Made by a program: the position numbers and the translations under genes
IMG/VR virus record: IMGVR_UViG_3300025138_000446
Location: 1-21,465 of that record
Reading direction: 5' to 3' (one strand)
DNA: 21,465 bases
Source of the DNA: a virus
In this document: positions 1 to 21,465 of the stretch, piece by piece
Numbering within the stretch: position 1 is the first letter of the stretch
Layout: every line of letters starts with the position of its first letter
The notes under the pieces: generated by a model
Told to the model about the DNA's origin: nothing
Seen by the model: the letters and a program-made list of their open reading frames with translations, nothing else
The model's database searches: none

Positions 1-1
1 T

Positions 2-298: not shown

Positions 299-323
299 CA
301 ATTAACTTTAATTAAATTAAATC

Positions 324-626: not shown

Positions 627-813
627 AGACTATAAAGTCGACTCAATGCACTACTCAGTAGGGCAAGAGGTATACGGTGGCCATACTATTTGTGATATTA
701 TTGAAGAGGACGAAAAGTACTCAATATATATTAGAAAAAACAAAGATGTGCTTCCGTGGAAAGACTTTAACAAAAACATGGCTATTTCAGTAGAATATAA
801 CCTACAGTACTAA
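580..813 (+). CDS. Small conserved phage protein, function unknown
   Basis: This 77-residue protein is best started at the ATG at 580 (MKMETTKLIRKITIGKDYK), which sits behind an A/T-rich leader. A longer form from 559 adds seven residues but overlaps the upstream gene more; an ATG at 586 is also possible. The core reads YSVGQEVYGGHTICDIIEED and then a PWKDFNKNMAIS segment, suggesting a compact mixed alpha/beta or SH3-like fold. No catalytic motif is visible. I recall similar short proteins beside terminase genes in uncultured marine phages, always without a known role. The gene begins within the coiled-coil gene, and its TAA stop shares its last A with the ATG of the next gene (TAATG). This makes translational coupling through the cluster likely. 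Confidence 0.75.
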   Translation: MKMETTKLIRKITIGKDYKVDSMHYSVGQEVYGGHTICDIIEEDEKYSIYIRKNKDVLPWKDFNKNMAISVEYNLQY

Positions 814-1391
814 TGCAGAGTGTTTACGGTTTTGTTATAACTCCTAGTGGTGGTAGATATAAAAATACTAGTAAAGTTGGTGACAAAGAGTTAATAATAA
901 ACTCTGAGATTTATAACCATCAGTTTACTAATAGAGAAGCTACAGTTGTTGAGGTTCCTAAAATAAACAGCACAGGCATTAATAAAGGAGATACGGTGAT
1001 AGTTCATCACAACGTTTTTAGAAGATGGACTGATGTTCGTGGTAACGAAAAGAATAGTAAAAACTATTTTGACGACGACACATACGTTGTATACCAAGAT
1101 CAAATATTTCTATATAAAAATACTAAATGGAACTCTATGCCTGGCTTTTGCTTTGTAAAGCCAATAAAAGCTATTGGTAACTTTGATACAGATCAAGAAC
1201 AACCTTTGAAAGGCATAGTTAAACATACGGATGGTAGCGTGGAAAAAGGAGATCTAGTTGGTTTTACGCCTAACTCTGAATACGAGTTTGTTTTTGAAGG
1301 AGAAAGACTGTATAGAGTGTACTCTAAATTTATTACAATTAAATATGAATATCAAGGAAACGAAGAAGAGTATAATCCAAGCTGGGCATAA
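813..1391 (+). CDS. Possible GroES-like co-chaperonin (tentative)
   Basis: This 192-residue protein is beta-rich, with no signal peptide or membrane segment. Its first half has the order expected of a GroES-type barrel: a start resembling VxVxP, then GINKGDTVIVHHNVFRR at about residues 55-71 (GroES has GDxVxF at the equivalent place), then DDTYVVYQDQIFLY at 88-101, resembling the late strand that ends in 'ILA' in GroES. The second half repeats a GD-containing pattern (GSVEKGDLVGFTP at 141-153), so the protein could be a tandem barrel about twice the length of the roughly 97-residue GroES. GroES-like proteins are known in phages (T4 gp31 helps fold the capsid protein), which would fit a place just before the terminase and capsid genes. 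The fold assignment is inference; a plain hypothetical structural protein is the alternative. It starts in a TAATG overlap with the gene before. Confidence 0.5.
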   Translation: MQSVYGFVITPSGGRYKNTSKVGDKELIINSEIYNHQFTNREATVVEVPKINSTGINKGDTVIVHHNVFRRWTDVRGNEKNSKNYFDDDTYVVYQDQIFLYKNTKWNSMPGFCFVKPIKAIGNFDTDQEQPLKGIVKHTDGSVEKGDLVGFTPNSEYEFVFEGERLYRVYSKFITIKYEYQGNEEEYNPSWA

Positions 1392-1620
1392 GGCTGTTGA
1401 AGAACTTATCAAAGTTGCAAAGGAAGCTATTGTGGATGGTGATGATGACATTACTGCCGATAGACTTAAGAACGCTGCTGCTACAAAGAAGCTCGCGATC
1501 TTTGATGCCTTTGAGATACTTAATCGCATACAAGAAGAACAAGCTTTACTCGAGGGTAAGGCTGTTGAAGAGAAGAAAGAGAAGGTTTTTAAGGGCTTTG
1601 CCGAAGGTAGATCTAAATAA
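1345..1620 (+). CDS. Probable terminase small subunit
   Basis: This 91-residue, mostly helical protein is started at the ATG at 1345 (MNIKETKKSIIQAGHKAVEE). A longer open frame extends upstream to 1258, but that part lies wholly inside the preceding gene and reads like out-of-frame sequence. The central stretch DRLKNAAATKKLAIFDAF at about residues 39-56 is followed by an acidic then basic charged helix, with EEKKEKVFKGFAEG near the end. Small terminase subunits recognise the phage DNA, form rings and regulate the large subunit. The assignment rests on size, helical content and its position directly upstream of the large terminase, with which it shares a TAATG stop/start overlap. It also overlaps the preceding gene by 47 bases. 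No clear helix-turn-helix can be claimed by eye. Confidence 0.6.
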   Translation: MNIKETKKSIIQAGHKAVEELIKVAKEAIVDGDDDITADRLKNAAATKKLAIFDAFEILNRIQEEQALLEGKAVEEKKEKVFKGFAEGRSK

Positions 1621-3836: not shown

Positions 3837-3838
3837 AT

Positions 3839-6265
3839 ATGGCTGGGTCAGTTATAAAAAATTATTTTCCTTCTCAAGTTGTTAGTGATATTGAGAAAGT
3901 GTCAATGGAGTATGGTATGAAAGTAGCTAAAGCTATTGAGTACGAATGGTTCGAAGACAGGTTTTCACATAGTAATAGGTATTTAAACAATAGGGTAGAA
4001 TTTCACAAGCTTAGGCTATACGCAAGAGGCGAGCAGCCAATACAAAAATACAAAGATGAGTTGTCTATAAACGGTGACTTGTCATACTTAAACTTAGACT
4101 GGAAGCCAGTTCCAATTATATCTAAATTTGTTGATATAGTTGTAAATGGTATGTCTAATAGGGCTTACGAAATAAAGGCTTACTCTCAAGATCCGTATGG
4201 AATGAGCAAGAGGACAGCTTACATGGAAGGAATACTAGCTGATATGGACACTAAGGATCTAGCTCAATACGCTAGCGCTAAGTTTAAAGTCAATGTTTTT
4301 GATAATCCACCTGAGCAACTACCTTCGTCTATTGAAGAGCTTCAACTACACATGCAACTGTCTTACAAGCAGGCTGTAGAGATAGCACAAGAGCAGGCTC
4401 TTGACGTGTTGATGGAAGGTAATAGATATGAATTAATCAAAAAAAGATTTTTCTACGATTTAACGGTAATAGGAATAGGTGCTGTTAAAACTGGGTTTAA
4501 CACTTCAGAAGGTGTAACAATAGAATATGTTGATCCATCAAACTTAGTTTACTCCTACACTGACGATCCTTACTTTGAAGACTTATACTACATAGGTGAA
4601 GTGAAAAATATACCCGTTAACGAGCTTGTTAGAGAGTTTCCAAACTTAACGCAAGGCGAGCTTGAAGAGATAGTTCAAGAGTACAACAGTTACACCGGTA
4701 ATACTAAATACGGATATAACACAGGTAAGAAAACAGATAATAATAAGGTTCAGGTTTTGTACTTCAACTACAAGACTTTTATGAACAACACCTACAAGGT
4801 TAAAGAAACTGCAACTGGAGCGCAGAAAGCTATAAAGAAAGATGACTTATTTAATCCTCCTAAAGACAAGCAAGAGAATTTTACAAAACTTCAAAAGCAA
4901 GTTGAGGTTTTATATGAAGGTGCTTTAGTTCTAGGATCAAACAAGATGCTTAAGTGGGGCATGGCTAAGAATATGACTAGGCCAAAAAGTGACTACAACA
5001 AAGTTAAGATGAACTATCACATCGTGGCACCTAGGATGTACAACGGAAGTATAGACTCTTTAGTAAAACGTATAACAGGTTTTGCTGATATGATTCAACT
5101 TACACATTTAAAACTACAACAAGTAATGTCTAGACTAGTTCCTGATGGAGTTTATTTAGATGCTGATGGTTTGGCTGAGATAGATTTAGGTAATGGAACC
5201 AACTACAATCCACAAGAAGCTTTAAACATGTATTTCCAGACAGGTTCTGTTATTGGTAGATCTTTAAACGAAAACGGAGAGTTTAATCCTGGCAAAAACC
5301 CAATACAAGAAATACAGTCTGGTTCTGGTGGACAAAAAATGCAAAGCCTAATAGGTACATATAACTACTACCTACAGATGATAAGGGATGTAACCGGCTT
5401 AAATGAAGCTCGTGATGGTAGTATGCCAGCTGAGAGATCTTTAGTTGGTATTCAAAAAATGGCAGCTGCAAATAGTAATACAGCTACTAGACACATTTTG
5501 CAAGCAGGATTATTTTTAACTTCCGAGGTAGCTGGAGCTTTGACACTTAGAATATCTGATATACTAGAATACTCTCCGACTAAAGATGCCTTTACACAAG
5601 CAATAGGAGCGCACAATGTCGGAACACTAGAAGATATATCTGATATGTATCTTTATGACTTTGGTATATTTCTAGAGCTTTCTCCTGATGAAGAAGAAAA
5701 GCAGTTACTAGAAAACAACATACAGCAAGCGTTGCAGCAACAATTGATAGAGCTTTCAGACGCAATTGATCTTAGAGAAATTAAAAACATAAAGCTAGCT
5801 AATCAATTGCTGAAGATTAGAAGACAAAAGAAGTTAATGCAAGATCAAAAGATGCAGCAAGAAAACGCGGCTGCACAAGCTAAAGCTCAAGGTGAAGCAC
5901 AGCAGGCTGCTGCTCAAGCTGAGGCTCAAAAGAATCAAGCTATTACGCAATCTCAAATAGCCCTTGAAGAAGCTAAGGAAAACTTCAAAAGAGAAACCAT
6001 GATGCATGAGGCTAATGTTAAGAAGCAGCTAATGGATCACGAGTTTCAGATCAACATGCAGTTAAAGCAGATGGAAGTAACGGGGAAAAAGCAAGCTGAG
6101 ACTGGAAAAGAAGATCGTAAAGACGAAAGAACAAAGATACAAGCCTCACAACAAAGTGAGCTTATAGACCAAAGAAAAACCGGTGGACCACCTAAAAAGT
6201 TCGAATCTGCCGGTAATGATATACTCGGAGGTGGATTCGGTATGGAAACATTTAACCCGAGGTAA
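3839..6265 (+). CDS. Portal protein
   Basis: This 808-residue protein is the probable portal, the dodecameric ring at the capsid vertex through which DNA enters and leaves. The N-terminal part has FHKLRLYARGEQPIQKYK (about residues 55-72) and DWKPVPIISKFVDIVVNGM (87-105), a pattern typical of crAss-like and related portals. The middle contains GLNEARDGSMPAERSLVG, and then a long helical region. From about residue 615 to 765 it is extremely Gln/Ala/Lys-rich and probably a long coiled coil, the barrel-like extension found in large portals. The tail ends in a Gly-rich ILGGGFGMETFNPR. Size and place, between large terminase and the scaffold/capsid genes, both support the call. The ATG lies two bases after the terminase stop in an AAATAAATATGG context with no Shine-Dalgarno sequence. 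Confidence 0.92.
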   Translation: MAGSVIKNYFPSQVVSDIEKVSMEYGMKVAKAIEYEWFEDRFSHSNRYLNNRVEFHKLRLYARGEQPIQKYKDELSINGDLSYLNLDWKPVPIISKFVDIVVNGMSNRAYEIKAYSQDPYGMSKRTAYMEGILADMDTKDLAQYASAKFKVNVFDNPPEQLPSSIEELQLHMQLSYKQAVEIAQEQALDVLMEGNRYELIKKRFFYDLTVIGIGAVKTGFNTSEGVTIEYVDPSNLVYSYTDDPYFEDLYYIGEVKNIPVNELVREFPNLTQGELEEIVQEYNSYTGNTKYGYNTGKKTDNNKVQVLYFNYKTFMNNTYKVKETATGAQKAIKKDDLFNPPKDKQENFTKLQKQVEVLYEGALVLGSNKMLKWGMAKNMTRPKSDYNKVKMNYHIVAPRMYNGSIDSLVKRITGFADMIQLTHLKLQQVMSRLVPDGVYLDADGLAEIDLGNGTNYNPQEALNMYFQTGSVIGRSLNENGEFNPGKNPIQEIQSGSGGQKMQSLIGTYNYYLQMIRDVTGLNEARDGSMPAERSLVGIQKMAAANSNTATRHILQAGLFLTSEVAGALTLRISDILEYSPTKDAFTQAIGAHNVGTLEDISDMYLYDFGIFLELSPDEEEKQLLENNIQQALQQQLIELSDAIDLREIKNIKLANQLLKIRRQKKLMQDQKMQQENAAAQAKAQGEAQQAAAQAEAQKNQAITQSQIALEEAKENFKRETMMHEANVKKQLMDHEFQINMQLKQMEVTGKKQAETGKEDRKDERTKIQASQQSELIDQRKTGGPPKKFESAGNDILGGGFGMETFNPR

Positions 6266-6289
6266 ACTAACTAATTTATATTTTATATT

Positions 6290-7387
6290 ATGGAAGAAAA
6301 TGAAAACGTAGAAGAAGTGCAAGGCACTGAATCAACAGAAGAACAAGTTGTAGAGCAAGAGTCGCCGGTATCTTATAAGGAAGATGGTACTATTGTTTTA
6401 GATATGAACAAGCTTAACGAAATAGAGCAAGAAGTACAGGTTGAAGAGCAACCAATTGAAGCTACTCAAGAAGTAGCGCAAGAGGTGGCACAGGAAGAAG
6501 AAGTGAATAACGTTGTAGAAGCTGCTAACGAAGCTTTAGACAATGCAGCACAAACTGGAGCTCAGCTACCAGAAAACATACAGAAGCTGGTAGATTTTGT
6601 TAATGACACCGGCGGAAGCGTAGAAGACTACGTAAAGTTAAATCGCGACTATAAAGAAATGGATAGTCAAACTGCTTTACAAGAGTACTACGAAAGAACT
6701 AAACCTCACTTAACAAAAGAGGAAGTGAGCTTCATAATGGAGGATCAGTTTTCTTTTGATGAAGAGATTGATGATGAAAAAGATATAAAAAGAAAAAAGT
6801 TGGCTTTAAAAGAGCAAGTTGCAGAAGCCAAGACCTACTTAGACGGGGAAAAGTCTAAATATTACGACAAGATTAAAGCTACGCCAACTGTCAATGATGA
6901 TTATCAGAAGGCAATGGATTTCTTTAATCGATATAACGAAGAGGCTGAACAAAATCAGCGAGTAACTGAAGAGCGCTCTAAGTATTTTGAAGAAAAAACA
7001 GATAATGTTTTTAACAACGAATTCAAAGGTTTTGAATATGAAGTTGGTGATCAAAAATTTAGAGTAAACGTTCGTGATGCTGCTAAGACGAAAGAGGCAC
7101 AATCAGATCTTAATAATTTTATCAACAATCATATAGATGATGACGGTAAGATTAAAGACGCTGCTGAGTACCACAAATCGATTTATACAGCAATGAACCC
7201 TGATGTTGTCGCTAGGCATTTCTACGAGCAAGGCAAGGCCGATGCTTTGAAGATGTCTGTAGCTGAAACTAAAAATATCGACATGTCACCTAGATCTTCT
7301 CATGGAGAAGTAGAGGCTGGAGGTATTAGAGTTAGAGCTCTTGATATAGATACAACACCTTCGTTTAAATTTAAAAAACGAAAATAA
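6290..7387 (+). CDS. Probable capsid scaffolding protein
   Basis: This 365-residue protein is very acidic in its first 95 residues (many Glu, Gln and Val, with a repeated QEVA unit near 60-70). It has a mainly helical, charged middle with long Glu/Lys-rich segments, and ends in a basic tail (SFKFKKRK). There is no membrane segment and no protease motif that I can see. Highly charged, helical proteins with basic C-termini between portal and major capsid genes are typical scaffolding proteins, which template capsid assembly and leave before or during packaging; in P22 the basic C-terminus binds the coat protein. The call rests on composition and position, since scaffolds share little sequence. 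It starts 24 bases after the portal stop behind an A/T-only leader. A minor internal head protein is the main alternative. Confidence 0.65.
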   Translation: MEENENVEEVQGTESTEEQVVEQESPVSYKEDGTIVLDMNKLNEIEQEVQVEEQPIEATQEVAQEVAQEEEVNNVVEAANEALDNAAQTGAQLPENIQKLVDFVNDTGGSVEDYVKLNRDYKEMDSQTALQEYYERTKPHLTKEEVSFIMEDQFSFDEEIDDEKDIKRKKLALKEQVAEAKTYLDGEKSKYYDKIKATPTVNDDYQKAMDFFNRYNEEAEQNQRVTEERSKYFEEKTDNVFNNEFKGFEYEVGDQKFRVNVRDAAKTKEAQSDLNNFINNHIDDDGKIKDAAEYHKSIYTAMNPDVVARHFYEQGKADALKMSVAETKNIDMSPRSSHGEVEAGGIRVRALDIDTTPSFKFKKRK

Positions 7388-7412
7388 TTTAACAATTTAA
7401 AAACAATTTATT

Positions 7413-8927
7413 ATGGCAATTACTCCAGGAAGTAGTTTAAATGCAACGCCAGCTCCAAATAAGCAAACGTTGAATAACAACTACTTAGATTTTACGGCTA
7501 CAGGTGCGGGAGTTAACACTTGGGCTCAACAATATTTACCAGACCTTATGGAAAAAGAGGCTGAAGTTTTCGGACCGAGAACTATCGCAGGCTTTTTATC
7601 TAAAATAGGTGCTGAAGAGGCAATGCAAGCTGATCAGGTTGTATGGTCTGAACAAGGACGTTTACACATTTCGTACACAGGACAAGTTACTCACGCAACT
7701 CAAGGTGTACCAACAAACGCTTCTGAAATTACAATTACTAAAGAGATTGACGGAGCAGGTGTTACTTCTTCAGGAACTGTAGTTGATCACGCTGTTAGAG
7801 TTCACGACACTATTGTTGTGGCTAACTCAAACGGTGTTTTTAAATGTATGGTAACAGAAGTCGCAGGTAACGTTATCTCTGTAGCTTGCTACACGCAAGA
7901 TTCGCTAGCAACTTCTTCTACTGCAAACGACACGACTATATTGGTTTATGGTTCTGAGTATGCAAAAGGTAAGTCTTACACTAATGCAGCAGGTACAGCG
8001 GTATCTGACTCTCACAGTGCTAACGAGCCTAAAATGCAAACTTACAGCAACAAGCCAATCATCATCAAAGATTACTACGAAGTATCAGGTTCTGACACTG
8101 CTAGAATCGGTTGGGTTGAAGTTACAGGTGAAGAAGGACAATCAGGTTACTTATGGTACTTGAAGGCTGAAGCTGACACAAGAGCTCGTTTTAACGACTA
8201 CTTAGAAATGGCTATGCTTGAAGGTGAAAAGTCTGCTTTAGATGGTTCTGATACTTTAATTGAAGGATCGTTTGGTATGTACGGCGCAACTGGAAACCAA
8301 GTTGGTACTGAAGGTTTGTTTGCTGCTATCGAAGCAAGAGGAAACGAAACTTCTGGTGTAACTGGTGTTAATGCTGCTACTGACTTAGCTGAATTTGATG
8401 CTATCTTAGCTGAATTTGACAAGCAAGGTGCTATTGAAGAAAACATGATGTTCGTAAACAGAGCTACTAGCTTAGCAATGGATGACATGTTAGCTTCTAT
8501 GAATTCTTATGGTGCTGGTGGTACTTCTTACGGAGTATTCGAGAACGATGAGGATATGGCATTAAACTTAGGTTTTTCTGGATTCAGAAGAGGTTCTTAT
8601 GACTTCTACAAGTCTGATATGAGATACTTAAATGACAAAGCTACTCGTGGTGGAATTAACGCTGCTGCTGGTTCAAATGCAATCAGAGGAGTTATTATTC
8701 CTGCTGGTACATCAACTGTTTACGATCAGCAATTAGGAAAGAACCTTAAGCGTCCTTTCTTACATGTTCGTTACAGAGCTTCTCAGACAGATAATCGTAG
8801 AATGAAGACTTGGACTACTGGTTCGGTTGGAGCTGCTACATCTTCTTTAGATGCAATGCAAATTCACTTCTTATCTGAAAGATGTTTAGTTACTCAAGGT
8901 GCTAACAACTTTATGTTAATGAAGTAG
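7413..8927 (+). CDS. Major capsid protein (HK97-fold, crAss-like type)
   Basis: This 504-residue protein probably forms the capsid shell. Near the N-terminus it reads NTWAQQYLPDLMEKEAEVFG (residues 35-54), then PRTIAGFLSKIGAEEAM (55-71) and ADQVVWSEQGRLHISY (73-88), which matches the pattern I recall for crAss-like major capsid proteins. A beta-rich stretch at about 90-200 is probably an insertion domain on the capsid surface. The second half has Gly/Ala-rich alpha/beta sequence, and the end LSERCLVTQGANNFMLMK also fits the family. Codon choice looks smoother than in the neighbours (many GCT, GGT, AAC, TTC), in keeping with very high expression. It follows the scaffold gene and is closed by a strong hairpin terminator at 8940-8971. 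The leader is A/T-only with no Shine-Dalgarno sequence. Confidence 0.93.
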   Translation: MAITPGSSLNATPAPNKQTLNNNYLDFTATGAGVNTWAQQYLPDLMEKEAEVFGPRTIAGFLSKIGAEEAMQADQVVWSEQGRLHISYTGQVTHATQGVPTNASEITITKEIDGAGVTSSGTVVDHAVRVHDTIVVANSNGVFKCMVTEVAGNVISVACYTQDSLATSSTANDTTILVYGSEYAKGKSYTNAAGTAVSDSHSANEPKMQTYSNKPIIIKDYYEVSGSDTARIGWVEVTGEEGQSGYLWYLKAEADTRARFNDYLEMAMLEGEKSALDGSDTLIEGSFGMYGATGNQVGTEGLFAAIEARGNETSGVTGVNAATDLAEFDAILAEFDKQGAIEENMMFVNRATSLAMDDMLASMNSYGAGGTSYGVFENDEDMALNLGFSGFRRGSYDFYKSDMRYLNDKATRGGINAAAGSNAIRGVIIPAGTSTVYDQQLGKNLKRPFLHVRYRASQTDNRRMKTWTTGSVGAATSSLDAMQIHFLSERCLVTQGANNFMLMK

Positions 8928-8939
8928 AAATACTTTTTG

Positions 8940-8971
8940 AACTACCCTGCCTTCGGGTGGGGTAGTTTTTT
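8940..8971 (+). terminator. Strong intrinsic terminator after the capsid gene
   Basis: A 12-base-pair stem (AACTACCCTGCC at 8940-8951 against GGTGGGGTAGTT at 8956-8967, with two G-T pairs) encloses a TTCG tetraloop at 8952-8955, and a run of T follows (8966-8971, then more T after a short gap). This is a textbook Rho-independent terminator with an extra-stable C(UUCG)G loop. It begins 12 bases after the capsid stop. It could end most transcripts after the capsid gene, so that capsid mRNA exceeds that of the genes downstream, or act as a 3' stabiliser with partial readthrough into the connector genes. Confidence 0.88.
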
Positions 8972-8995
8972 ATTAATTTTTTATTATATTATATC

Positions 8996-9823
8996 ATGGC
9001 TAAAAAGCAAACAACAAAGGTTGAAGTAGAACAACCACAAACAAAAGCTACAAATGAAATGGTTGAGGTGGTTATTGAAAAACCACAACCTAAAAAACCC
9101 GATTGGGAAATAAAAGATAGAATGTACTATCTTAAAAACAATAAAAAGCCTTTGTCAAAAATGGTTAAGTCAGCAGGCATTTTCTGGTTTGACGAAGAAA
9201 AAGGTTTTGAAAGAGAGTTGAAGTATTGTAAGAATCAACAAACTTCTTTTGTTGATGAAATGAAAGGTGATCAAAGGCTTTCTCACATTATATTTAGAGC
9301 AGGAAGTTTATTCGTGCCTAAAGAAGAAACGGTTTTACAAAAACTACTATCATTATACCATCCTCATAGAGAAAATATATTCTACGAGCACAAACCAATT
9401 AAAGTTGCTGAAAATCAACTAGACTGGTTAGAATTTGAAGTTGAGGCAATGGTAATAGCTAGAGGAATGGACGTTGATATGGCTGAGGCTATTATGAGAG
9501 TAGAGATAGGATCTGAAGTTACTAAGATGAGTTCTAAAGAGCTTAGAAGAGATTTGTTACTATTTGCTAAGAAAAACCCTAAGTTATTCCTAGAGTTGAC
9601 TACAGATGACAATGTAATGCTAAGGAACTTTGGTATTAAAGCTGTAGAAGCTAGAATAATTAAATTATCAGGAGATCAACGTAATTTCATGTGGTCTTCA
9701 AACGATAGAAAAATTATGACAGTACCGTTTGACGAACACCCATACTCTGCTTTAGCCGCTTGGTTTAAAACAGATGAAGGAATGGAGATATACTCCAACA
9801 TAGAAAAGCGCTTAAACGCGTAA
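8996..9823 (+). CDS. Conserved phage virion or head-completion protein
   Basis: This 275-residue protein has a basic, Lys/Gln/Pro-rich N-terminus (1-35) and then a mixed alpha/beta body. Recognisable stretches include DWEIKDRMYYLKNNKKPLS (36-54), SFVDEMKGDQRLSHIIFRAG (84-103), KELRRDLLLFAKKNPKLFLE (181-200) and TVPFDEHPYSALAAWFKTDE (242-261). No catalytic motif, signal peptide or membrane segment is visible. I recall similar proteins directly downstream of the major capsid gene in uncultured marine phages, without a proven role. The position between capsid and connector genes suggests a head-completion, capsid-auxiliary or assembly protein. It lies just after the capsid terminator, so it may depend on readthrough. 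The ATG at 8996 follows an A/T-rich leader and no other start is competitive. Confidence 0.75.
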   Translation: MAKKQTTKVEVEQPQTKATNEMVEVVIEKPQPKKPDWEIKDRMYYLKNNKKPLSKMVKSAGIFWFDEEKGFERELKYCKNQQTSFVDEMKGDQRLSHIIFRAGSLFVPKEETVLQKLLSLYHPHRENIFYEHKPIKVAENQLDWLEFEVEAMVIARGMDVDMAEAIMRVEIGSEVTKMSSKELRRDLLLFAKKNPKLFLELTTDDNVMLRNFGIKAVEARIIKLSGDQRNFMWSSNDRKIMTVPFDEHPYSALAAWFKTDEGMEIYSNIEKRLNA

Positions 9824-9829
9824 TCACTA

Positions 9830-9871
9830 TATAGTAGGGCAGCCACTCTGCGGGGTGGTTGCTTAACTATA
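9830..9871 (+). other. Intergenic hairpin with UGCG tetraloop, no T-run
   Basis: A 10-base-pair stem (GCAGCCACTC at 9839-9848 against GGGTGGTTGC at 9853-9862, two G-T pairs) encloses a TGCG loop at 9849-9852, which belongs to the stable UNCG tetraloop class. A second outer stem pairs TATAGT (9830-9835) with ACTATA (9866-9871) across a small internal loop. It is followed by eight A and not by T, so it is not a standard Rho-independent terminator in this direction. It may be a transcript-end stabiliser, a processing site, or a terminator of a less usual kind. It starts six bases after the upstream stop. Confidence 0.65.
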
Positions 9872-9884
9872 AAAAAAACATACA

Positions 9885-10631
9885 ATGGCAGTAAACGTAG
9901 ATTCAGTATATCAAAAAGTATTGGCCATTGCCAACAAAGAACAAAGAGGTTATATAACACCTTTAGAATTTAACCTGCTTGCAAATCAAGCTCAAGACGC
10001 TATATTTGAGCAGTATTTCTACGATATTAAGCAGTGGAACGATCAGAAAGCTGGAAACTCTACTGAGTATTCAGACATGCTAGACGTTTTAGCAGAGAAA
10101 ATATCACCATTCGAACAATACAAAGTAGCTGTGTCTGCCGTAGCTAGTACTAACGAAATAACGCTACCTACAGATACTTACAGGCTAGGTACAGTGTTTT
10201 TTGCTGTTGGTGGTGCTTATGATGTTGAAGTTGAGAGAGTTGAAAAAAACGACTTCTTGTACATGGAAAGAACAGCGTTATTTAGCCCTTCAAAGACTAG
10301 GCCTGTTTATGTTAGAAAGTCAGATACAAAGCTAAAACTTTTTCCAGCTGCTAATACTCCAGCATACGCTACAGGCAACGTTTCTTGTAATTACATTAAA
10401 AAACCATCAGAGGTTTACTTTGGATATGTACTTATACCTCAGTCACAAGGTGGTAATGAATATCCACTATACGACGCTACTAACTCCACTGATTTTGAAT
10501 TACACCAATCAGAAGAGAATACATTAGTATATAAAATATTAGAACTATCAGGAATAATATTAAACAAGCCAGGGCTTATACAGATAGCCGCTGGAGAAGA
10601 TCAACAAATAACTCAAGAAGAAAAAGTATAA
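9885..10631 (+). CDS. Probable head-tail connector (ring/adaptor) protein
   Basis: This 248-residue protein begins with helical sequence (VYQKVLAIANKEQRGYITPL at about residues 8-27, then FNLLANQAQDAIFEQYFYD) and continues as a beta-rich domain (NEITLPTDTYRLGTVFF, then RPVYVRKSDTKLKLFP). It ends in a helical, acidic tail. The helix-then-beta layout, size and position before the P22 gp4-like gene fit the head-tail connector or ring proteins stacked below the portal in short-tailed phages. No enzyme motif is visible. I recall close patterns in structural genes of uncultured marine phages. The exact ring is not decidable by eye. The gene ends in a double stop (TAATAA) two bases before the next ATG, so the two genes are probably co-translated. 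Confidence 0.68.
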   Translation: MAVNVDSVYQKVLAIANKEQRGYITPLEFNLLANQAQDAIFEQYFYDIKQWNDQKAGNSTEYSDMLDVLAEKISPFEQYKVAVSAVASTNEITLPTDTYRLGTVFFAVGGAYDVEVERVEKNDFLYMERTALFSPSKTRPVYVRKSDTKLKLFPAANTPAYATGNVSCNYIKKPSEVYFGYVLIPQSQGGNEYPLYDATNSTDFELHQSEENTLVYKILELSGIILNKPGLIQIAAGEDQQITQEEKV

Positions 10632-10634
10632 TAA

Positions 10635-11531
10635 ATGGGACTATTAGACAACACGACACAAGCAGCTTATTATGCTGACGGTAATAGTGCTAACTATGGC
10701 AACTATCAATTTACATCGCTTGAGCATATTATAAATCAATTTATGCTAGCCTATGTAGGTGAGCAGAAGATAATAGACAAAATAAAAAGAACAGATGTTG
10801 CTTTTCACGCTCAACGTGCGTTGCAAGAGTTAAGCTTCGATACTTTCAAATGTACTAAGTCTCACGAAATAGAAGTTCCGAACACGTTAACTTTAACGCT
10901 TCCTCAGGATTACGTTAACTACGTAAAACTAGTTGCTGTTGATGCTTCTGGTATACATCAAGTTTTATATCCAACACAGTACTCAAGCGATCCAACAGCT
11001 CCACTTCAAACAGGTGCAATAGGTAATGAAAACTTTATAGACGCTGGTGCTGATGGTAGTATTGACTTACAATCAGAGTCGAACACTTGGGATGCGTATA
11101 ACAACGGCACCGTAGAAACACTAGCTACTGACGGACACGACACTAGCACTTATGACGAGCTTATTGGTGGTAGATACGGAATAGACCCTCAGTTTGCTCA
11201 AACAAACGGTTCTTTTTACATAAATGATTTAAAAGGTAGAATACACTTTAGCTCTAATCTTGGTGGAAAAACTGTGATACTTAAGTACATAAGTGACAGC
11301 CTAGGTACAGATGACGAAATGCAAGTGCATAAGTTTGCGGAAGAAGCTATGTATAAATATATAGCGCACGCTGTTTTAGCAACTAAAGCAAATGTTCCAG
11401 AATATCTAGTAGCTAGATTTAAAAAAGAGGCTTTTGCTTCAAAAAGACAAGCTAAGCTTAGGTTGTCTAATATAAAGCTAGAAGAAATCACACAGATACT
11501 TAGAGGTAAGTCTAAGCAAATTAAACACTAG
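10635..11531 (+). CDS. Head-tail adaptor, P22 gp4-like (tail tubular) protein
   Basis: This 298-residue protein has a helical N-terminal segment (IINQFMLAYVGEQKIIDKIK at 32-51, then DVAFHAQRALQELSFDTFK at 54-72), a beta strand pair (NTLTLTLPQDYVNYVKLVAV at 83-102) and a long C-terminal helical region (about 230-298, basic at the end). The RALQEL...F...K followed by LPxDYVNYVKL pattern is one I associate with the gp4-like/tubular adaptor family of short-tailed phages, which binds the portal and closes the channel after packaging. A less conserved loop-rich stretch with many Asn, Asp and Thr lies at 115-200. It is the last of three connector genes and precedes the tail-stabilisation gene by three bases, as expected for a tail vertex operon. 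Confidence 0.75.
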   Translation: MGLLDNTTQAAYYADGNSANYGNYQFTSLEHIINQFMLAYVGEQKIIDKIKRTDVAFHAQRALQELSFDTFKCTKSHEIEVPNTLTLTLPQDYVNYVKLVAVDASGIHQVLYPTQYSSDPTAPLQTGAIGNENFIDAGADGSIDLQSESNTWDAYNNGTVETLATDGHDTSTYDELIGGRYGIDPQFAQTNGSFYINDLKGRIHFSSNLGGKTVILKYISDSLGTDDEMQVHKFAEEAMYKYIAHAVLATKANVPEYLVARFKKEAFASKRQAKLRLSNIKLEEITQILRGKSKQIKH

Positions 11532-11534
11532 TAT

Positions 11535-14500
11535 ATGCCAGAGTTAAAAAGAAATTTTATGCAAGGTCGAATGAACAAAGACCTTGATGAAAGAATAATA
11601 CCGGACGGAGAGTATAGAGATGCTTTGAACGTAGAGGTTTCTACTTCAGAAGAATCTTCAGTTGGAGCGGTTAAAAATATACCAGGCAACGAATTAATTG
11701 GTTCTATTAGGCTTAGCGATAGATGGTGGAAAGGTAATTCTTCGGCTGAAGGCGATATTCAAGGGCCATGGAAATACAGCCAAGCGATAAACGGTAGTGA
11801 TTTTTCTACGATAGCAGAAACAGTAGGAGCTGTAACCGATCCAGCCACTGACAAAATATATTCTTTTGTGTCTAGTGTAATAGAACCGTACTATGTTCAA
11901 GCGGCATCTGGAACATCGTTCACACCTACAGAATACACTAAAACTAGCGTTGGCTCTTCAACACAGTCAAAAGAAGTTGTGGTTAACAATGTTGATAACC
12001 TTGCTGTTGGCATGATTGTAAAAGGTACTGGTGTAGAATTTGGTACAATAATATCTTCGATTTCATCGCTTGGTGATCCAGTAGTGCACACTATAACGCT
12101 TAGCAAACTAAACACAATAGGCGCAGGTGTCAGCTTAGTTTTTTCTGTAGCAGCCTTAGTAGGATGTGATGTAGATTGTGTAATGCAAATTGAGCCTAAC
12201 TCTTTTGTGGCAACTGAGCAAAGCACGGATACGCTAGCTGTTATGAATGATGTATACAATGTATATAGAATACCTAGAAGTCCAATAACTTTATTTAACG
12301 ATGAATTTGAAGGCAGAAATACTACCGCCGCTAACAAAGAAGACAAAACCGTAATATTCATTTCTGAAAGCACAGGGGGAAACAATCCAAGCTCTGATGC
12401 AATAGTGCCTGGTGTTAATACGGGCCAAATGAATTGGGGAAACGGGTTGGCTAAAGGATCTGAAGTTGAGATATACTTTGGTGGCATTAACGTTCTTACT
12501 CCAGACGTAATAAACGCGTTTACAAACAAGCCAATAGGAAAAGTTAAGGTTTCAAGCGTTGAGTTTAGCAAGGTGTATGACACAAACAACCCGACTATTA
12601 CTGTTACACTAAATAAAGCCATACCAGCAGACATAGTTACACAAGCAAAGATTGAGGGTGGATTATATTTTAAGTTTAAAAACGAAAGATTATTAAACTT
12701 TGAAAATGGAGTTAAGCTAAATTACACTGAAGCTAACGTCGAGGGTAACACGCTTATTGAAAATCATCCAACCCCTATAAATACTAAAATATCAGGCATA
12801 GATATTGTTGATAGTGTTATATATTTTACCGATGGTAAGACAGAGCCTAAAAGAATTGATATTAAAAAAGGGATAGAGGCTTCTAATTTTGCTACAAATT
12901 ATTCATCTGTTTTAAACTTTGGTGTAGAGCCTAATTATAGCCCTCTTTTGTTTGAAACTTCTCAAATAGTATACGAAGATCCTATAAGTCAGTATTTTGG
13001 AAGTCATCCAAGCTCGCCTAACTACAACTACGGTAATGGGCAGAATAGAAAAAAAGCAAAAAAATACGAACTAGAAGATATAACTGTAATACGAAGACAT
13101 CCTTTAAATCCTCCAGTAATAGACTTGAAGCGATCTAGCAGAGTAGGAATAACACATGAAGTTGGTTTGTTAGCTGGAACGCCAATAAGCAGCTCTACTA
13201 CTATGGGTCAGTCAATAGTATTTACTGTCACAAAAAATAAAAAAAGAGATTACGCGTTTCCTTCTTTTTATCCAGACGCAAGCACCTTAGATAATCACGA
13301 TAATACTAGAAATCACTCTTGGAGAGTAAACGATGTGCTTGTTTTAGATTCTTTATTCGGCTACTCTCCATCAGTAGCAAATCCACTAGGAGACGACAAC
13401 GGCTCGTTCAGCGACAGTGGATCTAGGATGCTTAAAGTTAAGATAACAGCCATATCATCTTCTGGTAGTTTTAGCCAACCTGGAGGTTCATCACCTCTTA
13501 CAGATTATCACGGTACCGATGGAGCGCTTATAAAAAGCAACCAAAGAGATTCTGAAATAGGTCTATACAATTTTGGCAATAGTTCTCAAAACTTATCTTC
13601 GCCAACCTACACTAAGTACGACGAAATACTTACTATTACGGCTGAAGTTGTTGATAAAAACGAAGCTTTGTCTAGAACTAATTTAAGTGCTACCGGAATT
13701 AAGTATTGGGAAGCTTCTTTAGAACCAGAAACTGCGGGTCTGTTTGAGGAAAAGTTTCCTAGATTTGCTATTAGATACAAATTTGACGACGGACAATACT
13801 CTGCTTTAAGTCCTTTTTCAGAACCTTGTTTTCTTCCTAAGACAACGTACAGATGGAATAAAGAAGATGGGCAAAACCTTGCTATGGTTAACGATGTTAG
13901 GCAAATAGTGCTTAGAGATTTTATTTCACCAAGCACGCCTGTAGACGTTAAGCAAATAGATGTACTTGTTAAGTTTGATGGCGAGAACAGTATATACAAA
14001 GTTGAATCTATAAAAAAAGGTAGCAGAGAGTGGAACAACGACAACGGTAAGTATGCTAAAACTATTCTAGGCCCAAGATCTTTAGTAACCAGTGGTACAG
14101 TTGCGTTCAACATGAACAACAGCAAAACACAAGCAAATAAATACGAATCTAAATCTTATGGTAGAACTAGAGGGCTTTTTGAAGTGAAAACAGAGAAAAT
14201 AGGTTCTGTAATATCTTCTAATCAAATCCTAAGACCGTTTGATGCTGTGCCAAGAAAAGCAAAAGCTCAGTGCATATCAGCTAATAGGTTGATATACGGA
14301 AACTACACTTTAGATTACGACTTAGTAACAAAAGAAGGTAAAGCTGTTGTTCCAAAATTTTTCTACGACTACAAAGAGCCTACTAACAAGTGGTACGGCT
14401 CTTTCAAAGAAACTACTGTTGATAATTTCCGCAACAATAGGATGTATGGAAGTCCAGCTAGGTCAATAAAAAGCGATAGAACATACACGCTTGGAGTTTC

Positions 14501-17054
14501 TTTTTTAGATAGGTTTGGAAGACAGTCACCGGTAATAACTGGTCCAAACAGCTCTTGTGTTTCTGTTCCTACTAGCGGTAGATTTCCCAATAGATTAAAC
14601 GTATTGATGGATTCTTCTAGCGGTATACCTTACTGGGCTACACACTTTAGGTACTACATGAAGGAAACTTCTAATGAGTATTACAATCTAGCTTTGTTTA
14701 GGGCTTATCCAGCTGAAGGCAATGGCGATGGAGAAGAAAATAGAACGACTAGCTATTGGTTAGCGTTTCACTCTTCAGACAGGAACAAAGTTCAAGAAGG
14801 TTCTACCCTTAGAATTAAAGAGAGAGGAGGTCAAGGTGCAGCGGGTGGTGAACAAGTTTCAAGGACATATACCATTACCGCTATATCCAACGAAGCTCCT
14901 AAGGAAGACGAGCTGGCCGATACTGTAACAATTGCTCCATCTAGACGAAAAGGCAAGTTTTACGCTAAGATAAAGGCTGACGCAACGTTTGTAAATACTT
15001 TAAAAGGAGGGTTTGGTGCAAATGATAAGTTTGGAGGAATACTATCTGACTATCATGATCCAGCTATTTTTGAGACGATACCTGATCCAGACATTGGATT
15101 AAACATTTTCTATGAAGTGCCTAGAACATATCCTATTGAGCTTACCGACAGTAATATACACGACTTAATAAACTTCGACGATTTTATAGCTTGTAACAGA
15201 TCTGGCTACGACGCGGATGGAGCAGACAAATCAGCTCCTACTTTTAGAGCGGCAGACAGCAATGGAACTCTTCATTCAAACGGAGGAGATCTTAATAATG
15301 GTACAGGTGCATTTCCTAACGAGCTATTCCATTTACACGATGGAAAACTAAACAGATATTGGGGTGATCTAAACACTAGAATTGTAGCGGTTAGAGGCGC
15401 ATCTGTTGAAGGAGGTATACAAAAAATACAACTAGATGCGATTAGAAACTTTGGTTTACCTGTTTTGCCAAATCCAATTGATCCTTCGCAAGCTTATATA
15501 GCGGGATCTACAGTAGGAATATCAACCGCTCTTATAGCCGACTCTGGTGGTACTGGGCCTTATACCGGCAACTACAATGTAGCTGGAGAATTTGCTACAG
15601 TAAGTCATTTAGGGCTTTTTGGAACTTTGTCTATAGTAAGACACGACGGAACTAGATCTGTATTAAATATTAACAATGTTAATGACGATGTACCTCTAAG
15701 TGGCAATATAGGCATGGGTTACCCGTCTCAAAATGATATTACTAGTGTATTTAACAACAATCAAAGCTATACAGCCACAAACACTGTTGAGTTAACTTCT
15801 AACATATTCTCAGCAACGCATGTTCTTCCTTTCCATAACTGTTGGTCGTTCAGCAATGGAGTTGAGTCAGACAGAATTAGAGATGACTTTAACACGCCTA
15901 GACTAGACAACGGAGTAAAAGCTTCTTCAACAGCAGAGACTTACGGCGAAAAAGAGTATAAACATGGTTTAATATTTTCTGGTATTTACAACGCTAAGAC
16001 AGACGTTAATAACTTAAACCAATTTATAAAAGCGATAGGAATAGTAAAAGATCTAAATCCAGAGTACGGTAGTATACAAAAACTCTTTACTAGAGATACT
16101 AACGTATTAGCTTTTTGTGAGAACAAGGTTTTAAAAATATTATCTAACAAAGACGCATTATTTAACGCAGATGGTAATACTAATGTAACTTCAAATAAAG
16201 CTGTTTTAGGTTCTGCTGTGCCTTTTCTAGGCGATCATGGTATATCTAGGAATGCAGAGTCTTTTGCAGAAGACGAGTTTAGATGCTATTTTGTAGATAG
16301 AGACAGAGGAGCAGTTTGCAGGTTGTCAAGAGATGGCATAACAGCAATATCCTCTATAGGTATGTCTGATTATTTTTCAGATGAACTTAGAAGTGCGGTT
16401 GCTTGTGTTGGATCTTTTAATAAAAACAAAGGAGAGTACGAGCTGACTATACATAACAACCTAGGTGTTGATGACGTTGATAATGATGCTACTACTGATA
16501 TTACAAAGCGCGTTCAAACTATTTCGTTTAACGAAAAAACTAATTCTTGGGTAAGTTTTAGATCCTATGCTATCGAACAAGGAGTTTCTATGAACAATCA
16601 GTACTTTACTTTAAAAAAAGGTAGGGTTTGGCTTCACTCAGATGATGCTACTGATGGTAGAAACAATTTCTACGGAACTCAATACTTCTCAAGCATAACA
16701 CCAATATTCAACGATGCTCCAGGATCTGTAAAAAGTTTTCAAACAATAAACTATGAAGGTACTCAGGCTCAAGTTATAGCTAATAGTAGAACAGCAACTA
16801 CAGCTGGATCGACTACTACTACCACTCTAAGTATTACGGGAAGCAAAGAAGGTCTTACCGTTGGTCAAGTTGTAACTAGCAACGATTTTACTCACGCAAA
16901 CCAAGGTAATCCAAAAGCAGACAGGCCAACAGTAACGGCTATATCTGAAAATGGTCAAGTATTAACGCTGAGCTCTGCTGTAACAATTGGAGCAGGTAAA
17001 ACAGTTGTGTTTTCAGACGCTGAGTACTACAATGATGATGCTTATACTGGCTGA
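11535..17054 (+). CDS. Giant tail stabilisation protein, main part, ending at an in-frame TGA
   Basis: As read with the standard code this is 1839 residues. The N-terminus MPELKRNFMQGRMNKDLDER followed by a GEYRDALNVEVSTSEES segment (about 27-43) is a signature I recall from phage stabilisation/tail proteins of crAss-like and marine phages, comparable in role to the P22 tail accessory factor or the crAss muzzle. The body is a long series of beta-rich segments without membrane regions or a signal peptide. Two similar small beta modules are inserted near residues 135-205 and 1751-1831 (both ending in an IGAG...VFS pattern). Near the end are FQTINYEGTQAQV and YYNDDAYTG, and then TGA at 17052. 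The frame stays open beyond the stop to 19421, so the true product is probably 2628 residues if the stop is decoded or is an error; see the next two entries. It lies three bases after the adaptor gene. Confidence 0.85.
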   Translation: MPELKRNFMQGRMNKDLDERIIPDGEYRDALNVEVSTSEESSVGAVKNIPGNELIGSIRLSDRWWKGNSSAEGDIQGPWKYSQAINGSDFSTIAETVGAVTDPATDKIYSFVSSVIEPYYVQAASGTSFTPTEYTKTSVGSSTQSKEVVVNNVDNLAVGMIVKGTGVEFGTIISSISSLGDPVVHTITLSKLNTIGAGVSLVFSVAALVGCDVDCVMQIEPNSFVATEQSTDTLAVMNDVYNVYRIPRSPITLFNDEFEGRNTTAANKEDKTVIFISESTGGNNPSSDAIVPGVNTGQMNWGNGLAKGSEVEIYFGGINVLTPDVINAFTNKPIGKVKVSSVEFSKVYDTNNPTITVTLNKAIPADIVTQAKIEGGLYFKFKNERLLNFENGVKLNYTEANVEGNTLIENHPTPINTKISGIDIVDSVIYFTDGKTEPKRIDIKKGIEASNFATNYSSVLNFGVEPNYSPLLFETSQIVYEDPISQYFGSHPSSPNYNYGNGQNRKKAKKYELEDITVIRRHPLNPPVIDLKRSSRVGITHEVGLLAGTPISSSTTMGQSIVFTVTKNKKRDYAFPSFYPDASTLDNHDNTRNHSWRVNDVLVLDSLFGYSPSVANPLGDDNGSFSDSGSRMLKVKITAISSSGSFSQPGGSSPLTDYHGTDGALIKSNQRDSEIGLYNFGNSSQNLSSPTYTKYDEILTITAEVVDKNEALSRTNLSATGIKYWEASLEPETAGLFEEKFPRFAIRYKFDDGQYSALSPFSEPCFLPKTTYRWNKEDGQNLAMVNDVRQIVLRDFISPSTPVDVKQIDVLVKFDGENSIYKVESIKKGSREWNNDNGKYAKTILGPRSLVTSGTVAFNMNNSKTQANKYESKSYGRTRGLFEVKTEKIGSVISSNQILRPFDAVPRKAKAQCISANRLIYGNYTLDYDLVTKEGKAVVPKFFYDYKEPTNKWYGSFKETTVDNFRNNRMYGSPARSIKSDRTYTLGVSFLDRFGRQSPVITGPNSSCVSVPTSGRFPNRLNVLMDSSSGIPYWATHFRYYMKETSNEYYNLALFRAYPAEGNGDGEENRTTSYWLAFHSSDRNKVQEGSTLRIKERGGQGAAGGEQVSRTYTITAISNEAPKEDELADTVTIAPSRRKGKFYAKIKADATFVNTLKGGFGANDKFGGILSDYHDPAIFETIPDPDIGLNIFYEVPRTYPIELTDSNIHDLINFDDFIACNRSGYDADGADKSAPTFRAADSNGTLHSNGGDLNNGTGAFPNELFHLHDGKLNRYWGDLNTRIVAVRGASVEGGIQKIQLDAIRNFGLPVLPNPIDPSQAYIAGSTVGISTALIADSGGTGPYTGNYNVAGEFATVSHLGLFGTLSIVRHDGTRSVLNINNVNDDVPLSGNIGMGYPSQNDITSVFNNNQSYTATNTVELTSNIFSATHVLPFHNCWSFSNGVESDRIRDDFNTPRLDNGVKASSTAETYGEKEYKHGLIFSGIYNAKTDVNNLNQFIKAIGIVKDLNPEYGSIQKLFTRDTNVLAFCENKVLKILSNKDALFNADGNTNVTSNKAVLGSAVPFLGDHGISRNAESFAEDEFRCYFVDRDRGAVCRLSRDGITAISSIGMSDYFSDELRSAVACVGSFNKNKGEYELTIHNNLGVDDVDNDATTDITKRVQTISFNEKTNSWVSFRSYAIEQGVSMNNQYFTLKKGRVWLHSDDATDGRNNFYGTQYFSSITPIFNDAPGSVKSFQTINYEGTQAQVIANSRTATTAGSTTTTTLSITGSKEGLTVGQVVTSNDFTHANQGNPKADRPTVTAISENGQVLTLSSAVTIGAGKTVVFSDAEYYNDDAYTG
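17052..17054 (+). other. In-frame TGA at a probable tryptophan position
   Basis: This TGA lies in frame (codon 1840) of a frame that is otherwise open from 11535 to 19421. Flanking residues read DDAYTG before it and YVESINTDQQEGK after it, followed by KEGKWFNYISG. In related tail proteins I remember a G-W-Y pattern at this place, so a TGG to TGA change is the simplest reading. The tryptophan codons elsewhere in this gene are TGG. Possible explanations are stop-to-tryptophan recoding, partial readthrough, a genuine nonsense mutation, or a base-call error. No frameshift is needed. Confidence 0.8.
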
Positions 17055-19421
17055 TATGTTGAGTCTATAAACACAGACCAACAAGAGGGTAAGGTTCTTG
17101 AATTTAAAAACAAAGAAGGCAAATGGTTTAATTACATATCGGGTGTAGCAACTACTTTCTCTACTGATAGAGGCGGTGGTGGCAGCACAGGAAACGTAGA
17201 CGCTCAAGAGTTTTCTGTACAAGGAATAGGTCACTTTCATGGCATATCTGGAGCTGGTAACAGTGGTCTTTTTTACTCTTCTACCGTAACAGCAACAATA
17301 ACAAATACTTGCGGTGTATCTGCAACTATAACAGGTAATACAGAGTCAAACATACCTTTTGGCACAAATTTTGGTACGTACACTGAGTTTGACCATGCTA
17401 CAGGCAAACAAAGAGTTACTATATGCCCGCCGACTGGGTACTCCTTTGTGTCACCGGATAATATAACAAACACATCGGTAGCAGTTGACAGCGTAACCTT
17501 AAACAGCACGACAACTCAAGCCAACAACATTGCCAATACTTTTACTACTACTGTAAATCAAACAAACGTAGTAAACGGCTGTATAACTGTTGATGTTAAT
17601 TGGCACGATGGCTACACTCCTAATGCAAATACAACATTAAGTATTGCTATTGCAGCTAGCTCAACAGGTGGCGAAATACAACTCTACAACTATCTAGCTG
17701 TAGCAAACTACGACCTAGCTTGGGAACAAAGCAGCTCTAACGAGTGGTCTTTAAACCAACCTATTGCTATAGACCCTAATCTAAACGCTAGTAGCCTGCA
17801 ATTAGGCGGATCTATCTTCAATGCAAACTTTGTAGACCTTGTTGTATCACCAAGTGAAAATGATGCGCTTAGCATATTGTCTGGAACTATTGATCCAACA
17901 ACCACTAGTCAAAGCTTTTCTTTTGAGTATGTAGCAGAAGGCAACACTTTTTTCAACGCGCCAACTACGCCTGGAGAGCAGGCTACAATTCGCAAGTTTA
18001 TTATACCTAAAGAAGTTGTTGGCTTTGGAGGAAACACTACAACGGTAGCAACAATTCCAGATGGATTTTACACATCTCCAGGTGCCAGCAACACAGCACA
18101 AGTAGGTAATGCAACTTACCCTGGACTTGTAGAAATTTATTGGGAGTTTACTGAATACAACTCTGTTGGGTTGGCCACGAAGCTAAAAGTTTACTGCAAG
18201 ATAAATCACACAGATTCTGGATATGTAGACAATCAAACTTACGGGTGCAACACTCCTACTAACGAAGCTAACTATGTTGATAGCTTTCCTTTATTACTTT
18301 GGATGCCTGCGCAAGACATAGGTGGTGGAGACGCGCCTGACGAGCCTAACGAGCCTACTGACATTCCTGGAGATATCTTTGACGATCCAAATCCTCCTTT
18401 AGTATTCAAAAACCAGGTAATAGTAGTACATCAAGACGCTGATGGCTCTCCTAGCACTGGGGTTTCAGTTCAAGTTGCTGAATTTGAAACAACTCAATTT
18501 GAAAATCTAAACCAATCAGTGGCGTCATGCTTTATGTCGGCTAATGCTGGGTTTTCTTTTGCAGAAGCAAATATAACTGTTGTAGATGGAAACAACGATA
18601 ATGCTCCGTCTGGCGGAGAAGCTAGCTACGTAGACGGTGTGGGAGGAGATACTTTAACAGCAAAAATACAATCAATAGTTTGTAAAGACATTGTTGTTGA
18701 CGGAGTTACCTTAGTTCAAGTTGACTTTACTTTTGAGAGTCTCATTATAACTTCTTCTAACGAAATTACTATAATAATAAAAGGAGATGCGGTAAATTTA
18801 GCCGCTGCTGAAGTTTCTCACGTTGTTAGAATAAGTAGTGTTGGGAGATTAGCTCATGGAGAAGACATAGACCAACGTATTTTTGGTAATGGATCTAGTG
18901 GAGCGCTAGCACTCACAGCGGCTCCAGATGGAAATTACACCGCAAGTGCTGACACACAAACCGGAGACGTTAAAACTTATTTACACGGATCACAAGTTAC
19001 TGGAACAAGCTCTAACGGAGTAGAAAGAACCGTTGCAACTGTTACATACAAAACAGTATCTGGGTCTAGATTTGTATCGGTTACACCAGACAATAACGGT
19101 AACAAGAAATTCTTACACTTATGCGGAGCGAGCTACAATGCTGGTACAGATAATGAAAAGATTTTAGCTTGGCTAAACGCTGAGCTTGATAACAACTTCT
19201 TTATAAGTTCTCAAAACAACTTAAATCAGTCTTACCATATATCTTTCGCTGTTAGTTCTTCTGGTTCTACGGGCGCAGGCAACATACAAGAGACAATAGT
19301 AGCAACAATAAAATTCACGGGTACAGGAGTTGCAGACGTTGCTACCACTATGCTTTTTCCAGGCGGACAAGATGGTAACGTTATATCCGCAACCCCTCAC
19401 GATAATCAATACTTTTTATAA
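17055..19421 (+). CDS. Continuation of the giant tail protein beyond the TGA (distal adhesin-like part)
   Basis: These 788 codons continue the frame of the upstream gene. There is no in-frame ATG between 17055 and about 18300; the first alternative start is a GTG at 17448, in mid-domain, so independent translation is unlikely. The first part (YVESINTDQQEGK, KEGKWFNYISG, DAQEFSVQGIG) looks like the real end of the stabilisation-protein domain. Beyond it come Thr/Asn/Val-rich beta domains typical of phage surface or adhesin regions (for example SSTVTATITNTCGV and NTFTTTVNQTNVVNGC). An acidic Pro-rich linker (PDEPNEPTDIPGDIFDDP, about 18340-18390) divides it from a second beta-rich domain starting VFKNQVIVVHQDADG. 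It was probably added by fusion and may bind the host surface. If the TGA is a real stop, this part is a decaying remnant; codon use does not look degraded. Confidence 0.7.
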   Translation, partial: YVESINTDQQEGKVLEFKNKEGKWFNYISGVATTFSTDRGGGGSTGNVDAQEFSVQGIGHFHGISGAGNSGLFYSSTVTATITNTCGVSATITGNTESNIPFGTNFGTYTEFDHATGKQRVTICPPTGYSFVSPDNITNTSVAVDSVTLNSTTTQANNIANTFTTTVNQTNVVNGCITVDVNWHDGYTPNANTTLSIAIAASSTGGEIQLYNYLAVANYDLAWEQSSSNEWSLNQPIAIDPNLNASSLQLGGSIFNANFVDLVVSPSENDALSILSGTIDPTTTSQSFSFEYVAEGNTFFNAPTTPGEQATIRKFIIPKEVVGFGGNTTTVATIPDGFYTSPGASNTAQVGNATYPGLVEIYWEFTEYNSVGLATKLKVYCKINHTDSGYVDNQTYGCNTPTNEANYVDSFPLLLWMPAQDIGGGDAPDEPNEPTDIPGDIFDDPNPPLVFKNQVIVVHQDADGSPSTGVSVQVAEFETTQFENLNQSVASCFMSANAGFSFAEANITVVDGNNDNAPSGGEASYVDGVGGDTLTAKIQSIVCKDIVVDGVTLVQVDFTFESLIITSSNEITIIIKGDAVNLAAAEVSHVVRISSVGRLAHGEDIDQRIFGNGSSGALALTAAPDGNYTASADTQTGDVKTYLHGSQVTGTSSNGVERTVATVTYKTVSGSRFVSVTPDNNGNKKFLHLCGASYNAGTDNEKILAWLNAELDNNFFISSQNNLNQSYHISFAVSSSGSTGAGNIQETIVATIKFTGTGVADVATTMLFPGGQDGNVISATPHDNQYFL

Positions 19422-19831: not shown

Positions 19832-20293
19832 ATGAAAAAAGAGATAACTCTAGCTAATAGAGACAAGATATTAAAACTAGAAAAATATCTACTATTAAAT
19901 GCCGATGGTGAAAACATAGAGGGTAATGGTACGGATATTTTGCATAGTGAAAATTTTCCACTAAAACACACGTTTGTAGACGGCGTGTATATAAGGGAAA
20001 TGAAAATGAAGAAAGACTCGGCTGTAGTTGGTGCTATACACAAGCACTTGCACGCCTGGTTTTTATTATACGGTCATCTGTTTATAGCTACAGAAGACTT
20101 TCAAGAAGAGTACGTTGCTCCTTGCTATGTTGTAGCTAAACCAGGATCTAAGAGAGTTATATACGCAGCTGAAGATTCTTTATTTGTAAACGTACACGCA
20201 AATCCAGATGGTATTACAGACGTAGAAGAGTTAGAGAAAAAAATAGTATCTTTAAACCACGAAGATTATGAACAATACATTAAAAATAAATAA
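19832..20293 (+). CDS. Cupin-fold phage protein
   Basis: This 153-residue protein has a cupin-like beta-barrel core. The first motif reads VVGAIHKHLHAWFLLYGHL (about residues 65-83), with H70, H72 and H74 as possible metal ligands and G81 in the usual turn; a second conserved stretch reads KPGSKRVIYAAEDSLFVNVH (103-122), with H122 as the likely second-motif ligand. The cupin motif-1 glutamate is not obvious, so the metal site, if any, differs from the classical one. Upstream, PLKHTFVDGVYIREMKM suggests an N-terminal strand. A small helical tail follows. Such proteins occur in several phage tail or virion operons, with no proven role that I know of. The leader is TTTAATTAA directly before the ATG, with no Shine-Dalgarno sequence. 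A catalytic role or a purely structural one are both possible. Confidence 0.75.
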   Translation: MKKEITLANRDKILKLEKYLLLNADGENIEGNGTDILHSENFPLKHTFVDGVYIREMKMKKDSAVVGAIHKHLHAWFLLYGHLFIATEDFQEEYVAPCYVVAKPGSKRVIYAAEDSLFVNVHANPDGITDVEELEKKIVSLNHEDYEQYIKNK

Positions 20294-21009: not shown

Positions 21010-21465
21010 ATGGCTGATAAAAAAACATCAAAAGAAGAGTCTGACGAAAGATTAGAAAAAGCTAAAAGCTTCGAGATGGACTTCTATGGTAAGATGCCAC
21101 AACGTGAAGGCTTTGAAGGTGAGTCTATGGGTATTACTGGGCTTAATAATTCTCTTACAGATCTATACAACACATTTGCTTTGCTAAAAGAAAAAGAGCT
21201 GCAAAACAGAGCTGATAAAGAAACCATAGAAGAATACGAAAAAACAGAAGCTAAAACAAAAGAAGCTAAAAATAGAGAGTTAGCTAAAGATAGTGATGGA
21301 GATGGAGCTCCAGACGCTATAGATAAAGACTCTAAAAATTTAGACTCTAAGCCTAATGACAGAGATGGTGATGGTGTTCCAGACAGCATAGATAAAGATA
21401 GTGGTAAACCGAAAAAGCAAGGACCGAGAATAGATATACCAGGCATAAATAGTAGCCCGTACTCA
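21010..21465 (+). CDS. Protein with thrombospondin-type-3 calcium-binding repeats, cut by right edge
   Basis: The frame is open from the ATG at 21010 to the right edge (152 codons seen, stop not reached). The N-terminus is MADKKTSKEESDERLEKAKS, then a helical, charged region to about residue 93 rich in Lys, Glu and Ala. Two calcium-binding repeats of TSP3 type follow: DSDGDGAPDAIDKD at residues 94-107 and DRDGDGVPDSIDKD at 117-130, each with the DxDGDGxPD core, separated by a short polar linker. A Pro/Lys-rich piece (KPKKQGPRIDIPG) continues to the edge. In bacteria such repeats occur in surface and secreted proteins; in a phage virion operon they suggest calcium-stabilised structure or a lytic or adhesive role. 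Enzyme domains, if any, lie beyond the window. It starts two bases after the ejection gene. Confidence 0.8.
   Translation, partial: MADKKTSKEESDERLEKAKSFEMDFYGKMPQREGFEGESMGITGLNNSLTDLYNTFALLKEKELQNRADKETIEEYEKTEAKTKEAKNRELAKDSDGDGAPDAIDKDSKNLDSKPNDRDGDGVPDSIDKDSGKPKKQGPRIDIPGINSSPYS

Follow-up and report, generated by a model that had tools for sequence, protein, structure and literature searches.

What does a single in-frame TGA in the middle of a very long phage tail gene stand for? The question is raised by the viral record IMGVR_UViG_3300025138_000446, of which the whole stretch of 21,465 bases was analysed and is referred to here as the window. On the + strand, the reading frame at 11535-19421 has TGA 17052-17054 as its sole interruption. 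ORF translation gives 1839 sense codons from ATG 11535 to the TGA and another 788 codons from the TGA to the TAA at 19419-19421, and no frameshift is necessary to join the two sides. The residues DAYTG lie before the TGA and YVESINTDQQEG after it. The sequence-only reading that pointed to this site had described a lone in-frame TGA splitting a 2628-codon frame (1839 and 788 codons plus the TGA) without a frameshift and with no ATG for the second part, and the ORF coordinates agree with it on each count. No ATG lies close to the break, and the earliest in-frame start 3' of the TGA is GTG 17448, 131 codons on. Were the stop recoded, which that reading named as one possibility, the locus would show how a change of the genetic code begins. 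The features of the locus are as follows.

11535..17051, + strand: muzzle (tail-tip) protein gene, the part before the TGA, 1839 codons (Pfam, phrog_14478, phage homologues)
17052..17054, + strand: in-frame TGA, TGG (Trp) in 84/84 relatives (ORF and alignment)
17055..17250 (end approximate), + strand: remainder of the MUZ_C region with the EFKNKEGKWFN motif, kept in relatives (alignment, MUZ_C span of relative L006)
17251..19421, + strand: muzzle C-terminal extension, differing among relatives, ending in TAA (40% identity to relatives L002/L003)

Judged by its sequence, the interrupted gene is a crassvirus-type muzzle protein gene, carried by an uncultured crAss-like podovirus of Bacteroidota type. 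In the window product, Pfam crAss_MUZ was matched at residues 5-66 and crAss_MUZ_C at residues 1709-1761, each above its curated cut-off, with 39.0 bits for PF25731 and 34.6 bits for PF25729 (cut-off 27 each); the PF25729 match was found also in L002, L005 and L006. The virion structural protein phrog_14478 matches the gene with an E value of 4e-105. Homologous virion proteins are present in Cellulophaga, Maribacter, Tenacibaculum and Flavobacterium phages, so a Bacteroidota host would fit; a domain search of bacterial genomes found none and hence gave no host hint. Two of the homologues, gp97 of Cellulophaga phage phi38:1 and CDS0075 of Maribacter phage Panino, are virion structural proteins that occupy the corresponding position in the gene order, with about 30% identity in an alignment that holds at the flanking blocks only and leaves the Trp column uncovered. 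The window as a whole is a + strand head-and-tail module, with terminase (phrog_6681), portal (phrog_6547), head proteins and the very long gene from 11535. These matches, together with the continuous ORFs of relatives, uphold the earlier proposal of a single tail gene and specify it as the muzzle, and they support the crAss-like phage context as regards this gene. An automated annotation will probably split the locus into two genes, one for a 1839-residue protein and one for a 657-residue protein from the spurious GTG, in a family that has one muzzle gene.

The closest counterpart with a solved structure is the muzzle gp44 of Bacteroides phage phicrAss001 (PDB 7qok, 7qol; PF25731, PF25729), to which the likeness consists of the Pfam matches at both ends of the present product. 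A sequence search of the PDB gave no useful match. The predicted structure of the homologous region of L006 had a mean pLDDT of 58 and was confident only in its middle part, the Trp region being low. A Foldseek search with this model, of low confidence overall, gave as top matches the phicrAss001 tail/muzzle chains 7qol_P and 7qok_A, with E values of 2e-9 and 7e-9. The phicrAss001 chain has about 1361 residues, whereas the frame described here has 2628 codons with a long variable C-terminal extension, and the TGA interruption is seen in this one record.

Then, what do relatives carry at the position of the TGA? The first relatives compared (L001, L002, L003, L005, L006 and L008) each have one unbroken frame with TGG at the site column. 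A broader scan returned 494 relatives, 80 of which were fetched for alignment; the 87 aligned rows, less 3 re-fetched stretches, represent 84 distinct loci. The Trp codon TGG is found in 87/87 rows, that is in 84/84 loci, and the window alone has TGA. The prediction of a Trp at the TGA, inside one continuous domain, was thus correct, and the alignment of homologues that had been called for shows none with a stop at the site. With a degenerate junction pattern (TGG or TGA), a search for a same-species contig over the site gave only three relatives at 61%, all with TGG. At the domain columns conserved in at least 97%, the window agrees at 25 of 26, the sole departure being the TGA itself. The MUZ_C match of L006 extends over residues 1665-1762, with the Trp at 1733, which places the window's TGA mid-way through the MUZ_C region.

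Beyond the Trp, the frame runs on for at least 33 codons in all 84 relatives. Where the end of the gene is visible, 46 of 78 loci stop within 110 codons after the Trp and 28 of 78 have an extension of more than 400 codons. The 788 codons downstream of the TGA in the window share 40% identity over 768 residues with the continuous ORF of L002/L003, and because they align with the same unbroken ORF in relatives, their openness is not a matter of chance. Across L001-L091, the stretch of the muzzle after MUZ_C can be as short as a few tens of codons or longer than 1,100, and this variable tail-tip extension may face the host surface.

We consider it very probable that the TGA is an ordinary, isolated single-base change of TGG to TGA in one assembled sequence, arisen by error or by chance mutation. 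The sequence-only reading had itself asked that a single-base error or a nonsense mutation be excluded, a caution that the analysis supports; all relatives have TGG, and no other sign of recoding was seen. A consensus error, or a consensus taken from a minority variant, is the probable form of this change; the wrong base would have come from sequencing, amplification or assembly. A real nonsense allele, that is a recent mutation recorded from the sampled genome, is conceivable but rather unlikely. With either origin, the functional gene in this population would be expected to run unbroken over 2628 codons as a single muzzle gene, with Trp at the site, and the TGA would mark an error or a dead allele. 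A second member of the family, L050, also has a damaged muzzle gene, with a frameshift and an in-frame TAA (at about 3934 and 4822). Counting the window and L050, disrupted copies of the gene are present in 2 of 85 contigs, which is roughly their frequency in these assemblies. Of the possible single-base changes in the window genes, about 4.7% create a stop, so that one such event is expected among thousands of contigs.

A point against an error or mutation is that the contig appears accurate elsewhere. The contig L102 (IMGVR_UViG_3300025168_001589) is 99.992% identical to the window, its positions 2579-14591 corresponding to window positions 1-12013, and it belongs to the same phage population. 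The lone mismatch in 12,013 bases, at window position 5386, is a synonymous AGG/AGA difference, which indicates a good window consensus in that half. L102 adds 2,578 bases upstream and ends inside the muzzle gene, and the comparison stops before the TGA site.

Could the TGA instead be read as Trp? Here TGA would be reassigned through a UCA-anticodon tRNA of the phage or its host, at so early a stage that one codon has been converted. TGA-to-Trp recoding of late genes has been published in crAss-like phages, with suppressor tRNAs often, though not always, found (PMC7886860). The present case, also in a crAss-like phage, resembles those (Yutin et al. 2021, PMC7886860) in having a stop at a Trp position within a late structural gene; the column is invariant, Trp is the residue expected if TGA were decoded, and a TGG-to-TGA change is the initial step that any recoding lineage must take. 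TGA is also scarce as a terminator. It ends none of the window genes besides the interrupted one, and among ORFs of at least 120 aa in the family loci L014-L102, the window's included, it ends 15 of 502, compared with 446 for TAA and 41 for TAG, which weakly favours a tolerance of recoding in the group. Close relatives do end genes with TGA, the homologue of the window gene at 813-1391 among them, which speaks against reassignment; in 4 of 5 such cases another stop follows 0-6 codons on, and some lie at 4-base overlaps with the next gene.

Codon usage within the window also speaks against recoding. The predicted genes contain about 57 TGG codons (56-58 depending on the gene set) and one in-frame TGA, which sets a 95% upper bound of 8% on the TGA share of Trp codons. 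The A-ending share in the A/G codon pairs of the window is 0.79 for CAA, 0.63 for AAA and 0.65 for GAA, and given this preference for A-ending codons in CAR, AAR and GAR, a free TGA-to-Trp code would yield many TGA codons. With 57 Trp codons, one TGA or none would be seen with a probability of about 1e-24 if TGA held a 65% share, and of 5e-5 even if its share were 20%. In recoded crAss-like phages the stops lie within conserved genes, the test set being TerL, MCP and portal (PMC7886860), and a suppressor tRNA is often present. In contrast, TerL, portal and MCP of the window have no in-frame TGA, and a tRNA search found none in the window, which covers an incomplete genome, or in the fragments of relatives; a tRNA of the host would be conceivable. 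Of the checks suggested earlier, the search for more in-frame TGA codons came back empty in the window's predicted genes, and that for a UCA suppressor tRNA in the window and the fragments of relatives; the proposal of stop recoding was not supported. A single stop codon at a conserved Trp position says little in favour of recoding if no other genes show stops as well. We rejected a general code change; in-frame TGA at Trp positions was not seen in several conserved genes. There is only a very slight chance that TGA is reassigned here, and it is just as improbable that the phage is at the very outset of such a change, as a lineage that seldom ends genes with TGA, has a host or a tRNA decoding UGA as Trp and has only now switched the first of its Trp codons.

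Leaky readthrough of the UGA, giving muzzle proteins of 1839 and 2628 residues in the manner of the extended coat protein of phage Q-beta, is likewise highly improbable. The likeness to the Q-beta A1 readthrough protein lies in one UGA followed by an open frame, which here extends to the TAA. The Q-beta UGA is a conserved gene end that follows a complete coat protein, whereas the stop described here is unconserved and truncates a domain. No relative (0/84) has a stop at the site, so the conservation expected of a programmed readthrough is absent among those examined. Even relatives with a short muzzle carry 33-110 codons after the Trp, and the 1839-residue form would accordingly have an incomplete MUZ_C region. 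There is thus no support for a functional short form, since the stop occurs in this record alone and the product would be missing a segment present in every relative, and the pair of short and long tail proteins proposed earlier finds no counterpart among relatives, all of which complete the truncated domain. UGA is known as a leaky stop, with low-level misreading as Trp in E. coli and Salmonella (PMC7918605), and a little full-length protein could possibly be made by such leakiness. The tail-tip protein of phicrAss001 is hexameric and about 1 MDa (PMC10172136), and such a protein would be an unlikely candidate for a full-length product of a few per cent.

It is hardly credible that the coding region after the TGA forms a distinct gene and that the TGA is a true gene end, and this reading was rejected, as nothing beyond the TGA itself favours it, the earliest start is a GTG 131 codons 3' with no ATG near the TGA, and all 84 relatives examined have ORFs continuous through the site, which rules out among them the second part as a gene of its own that the sequence-only reading had named as a refuting alternative. 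Scanning for just the extension turned up neither a relative nor a free-standing copy, but the scan was weak and missed known fused relatives too.

Downstream of the muzzle gene, positions 19832-20293 encode a 153-residue protein that matches phrog_12032 (short tail fiber) and phrog_24280 (tail fiber adhesin). The last gene, at 21010-21465 and cut by the contig end, has in its translation repeated DxDGDGxPDxIDKDS motifs that resemble calcium-binding repeats.
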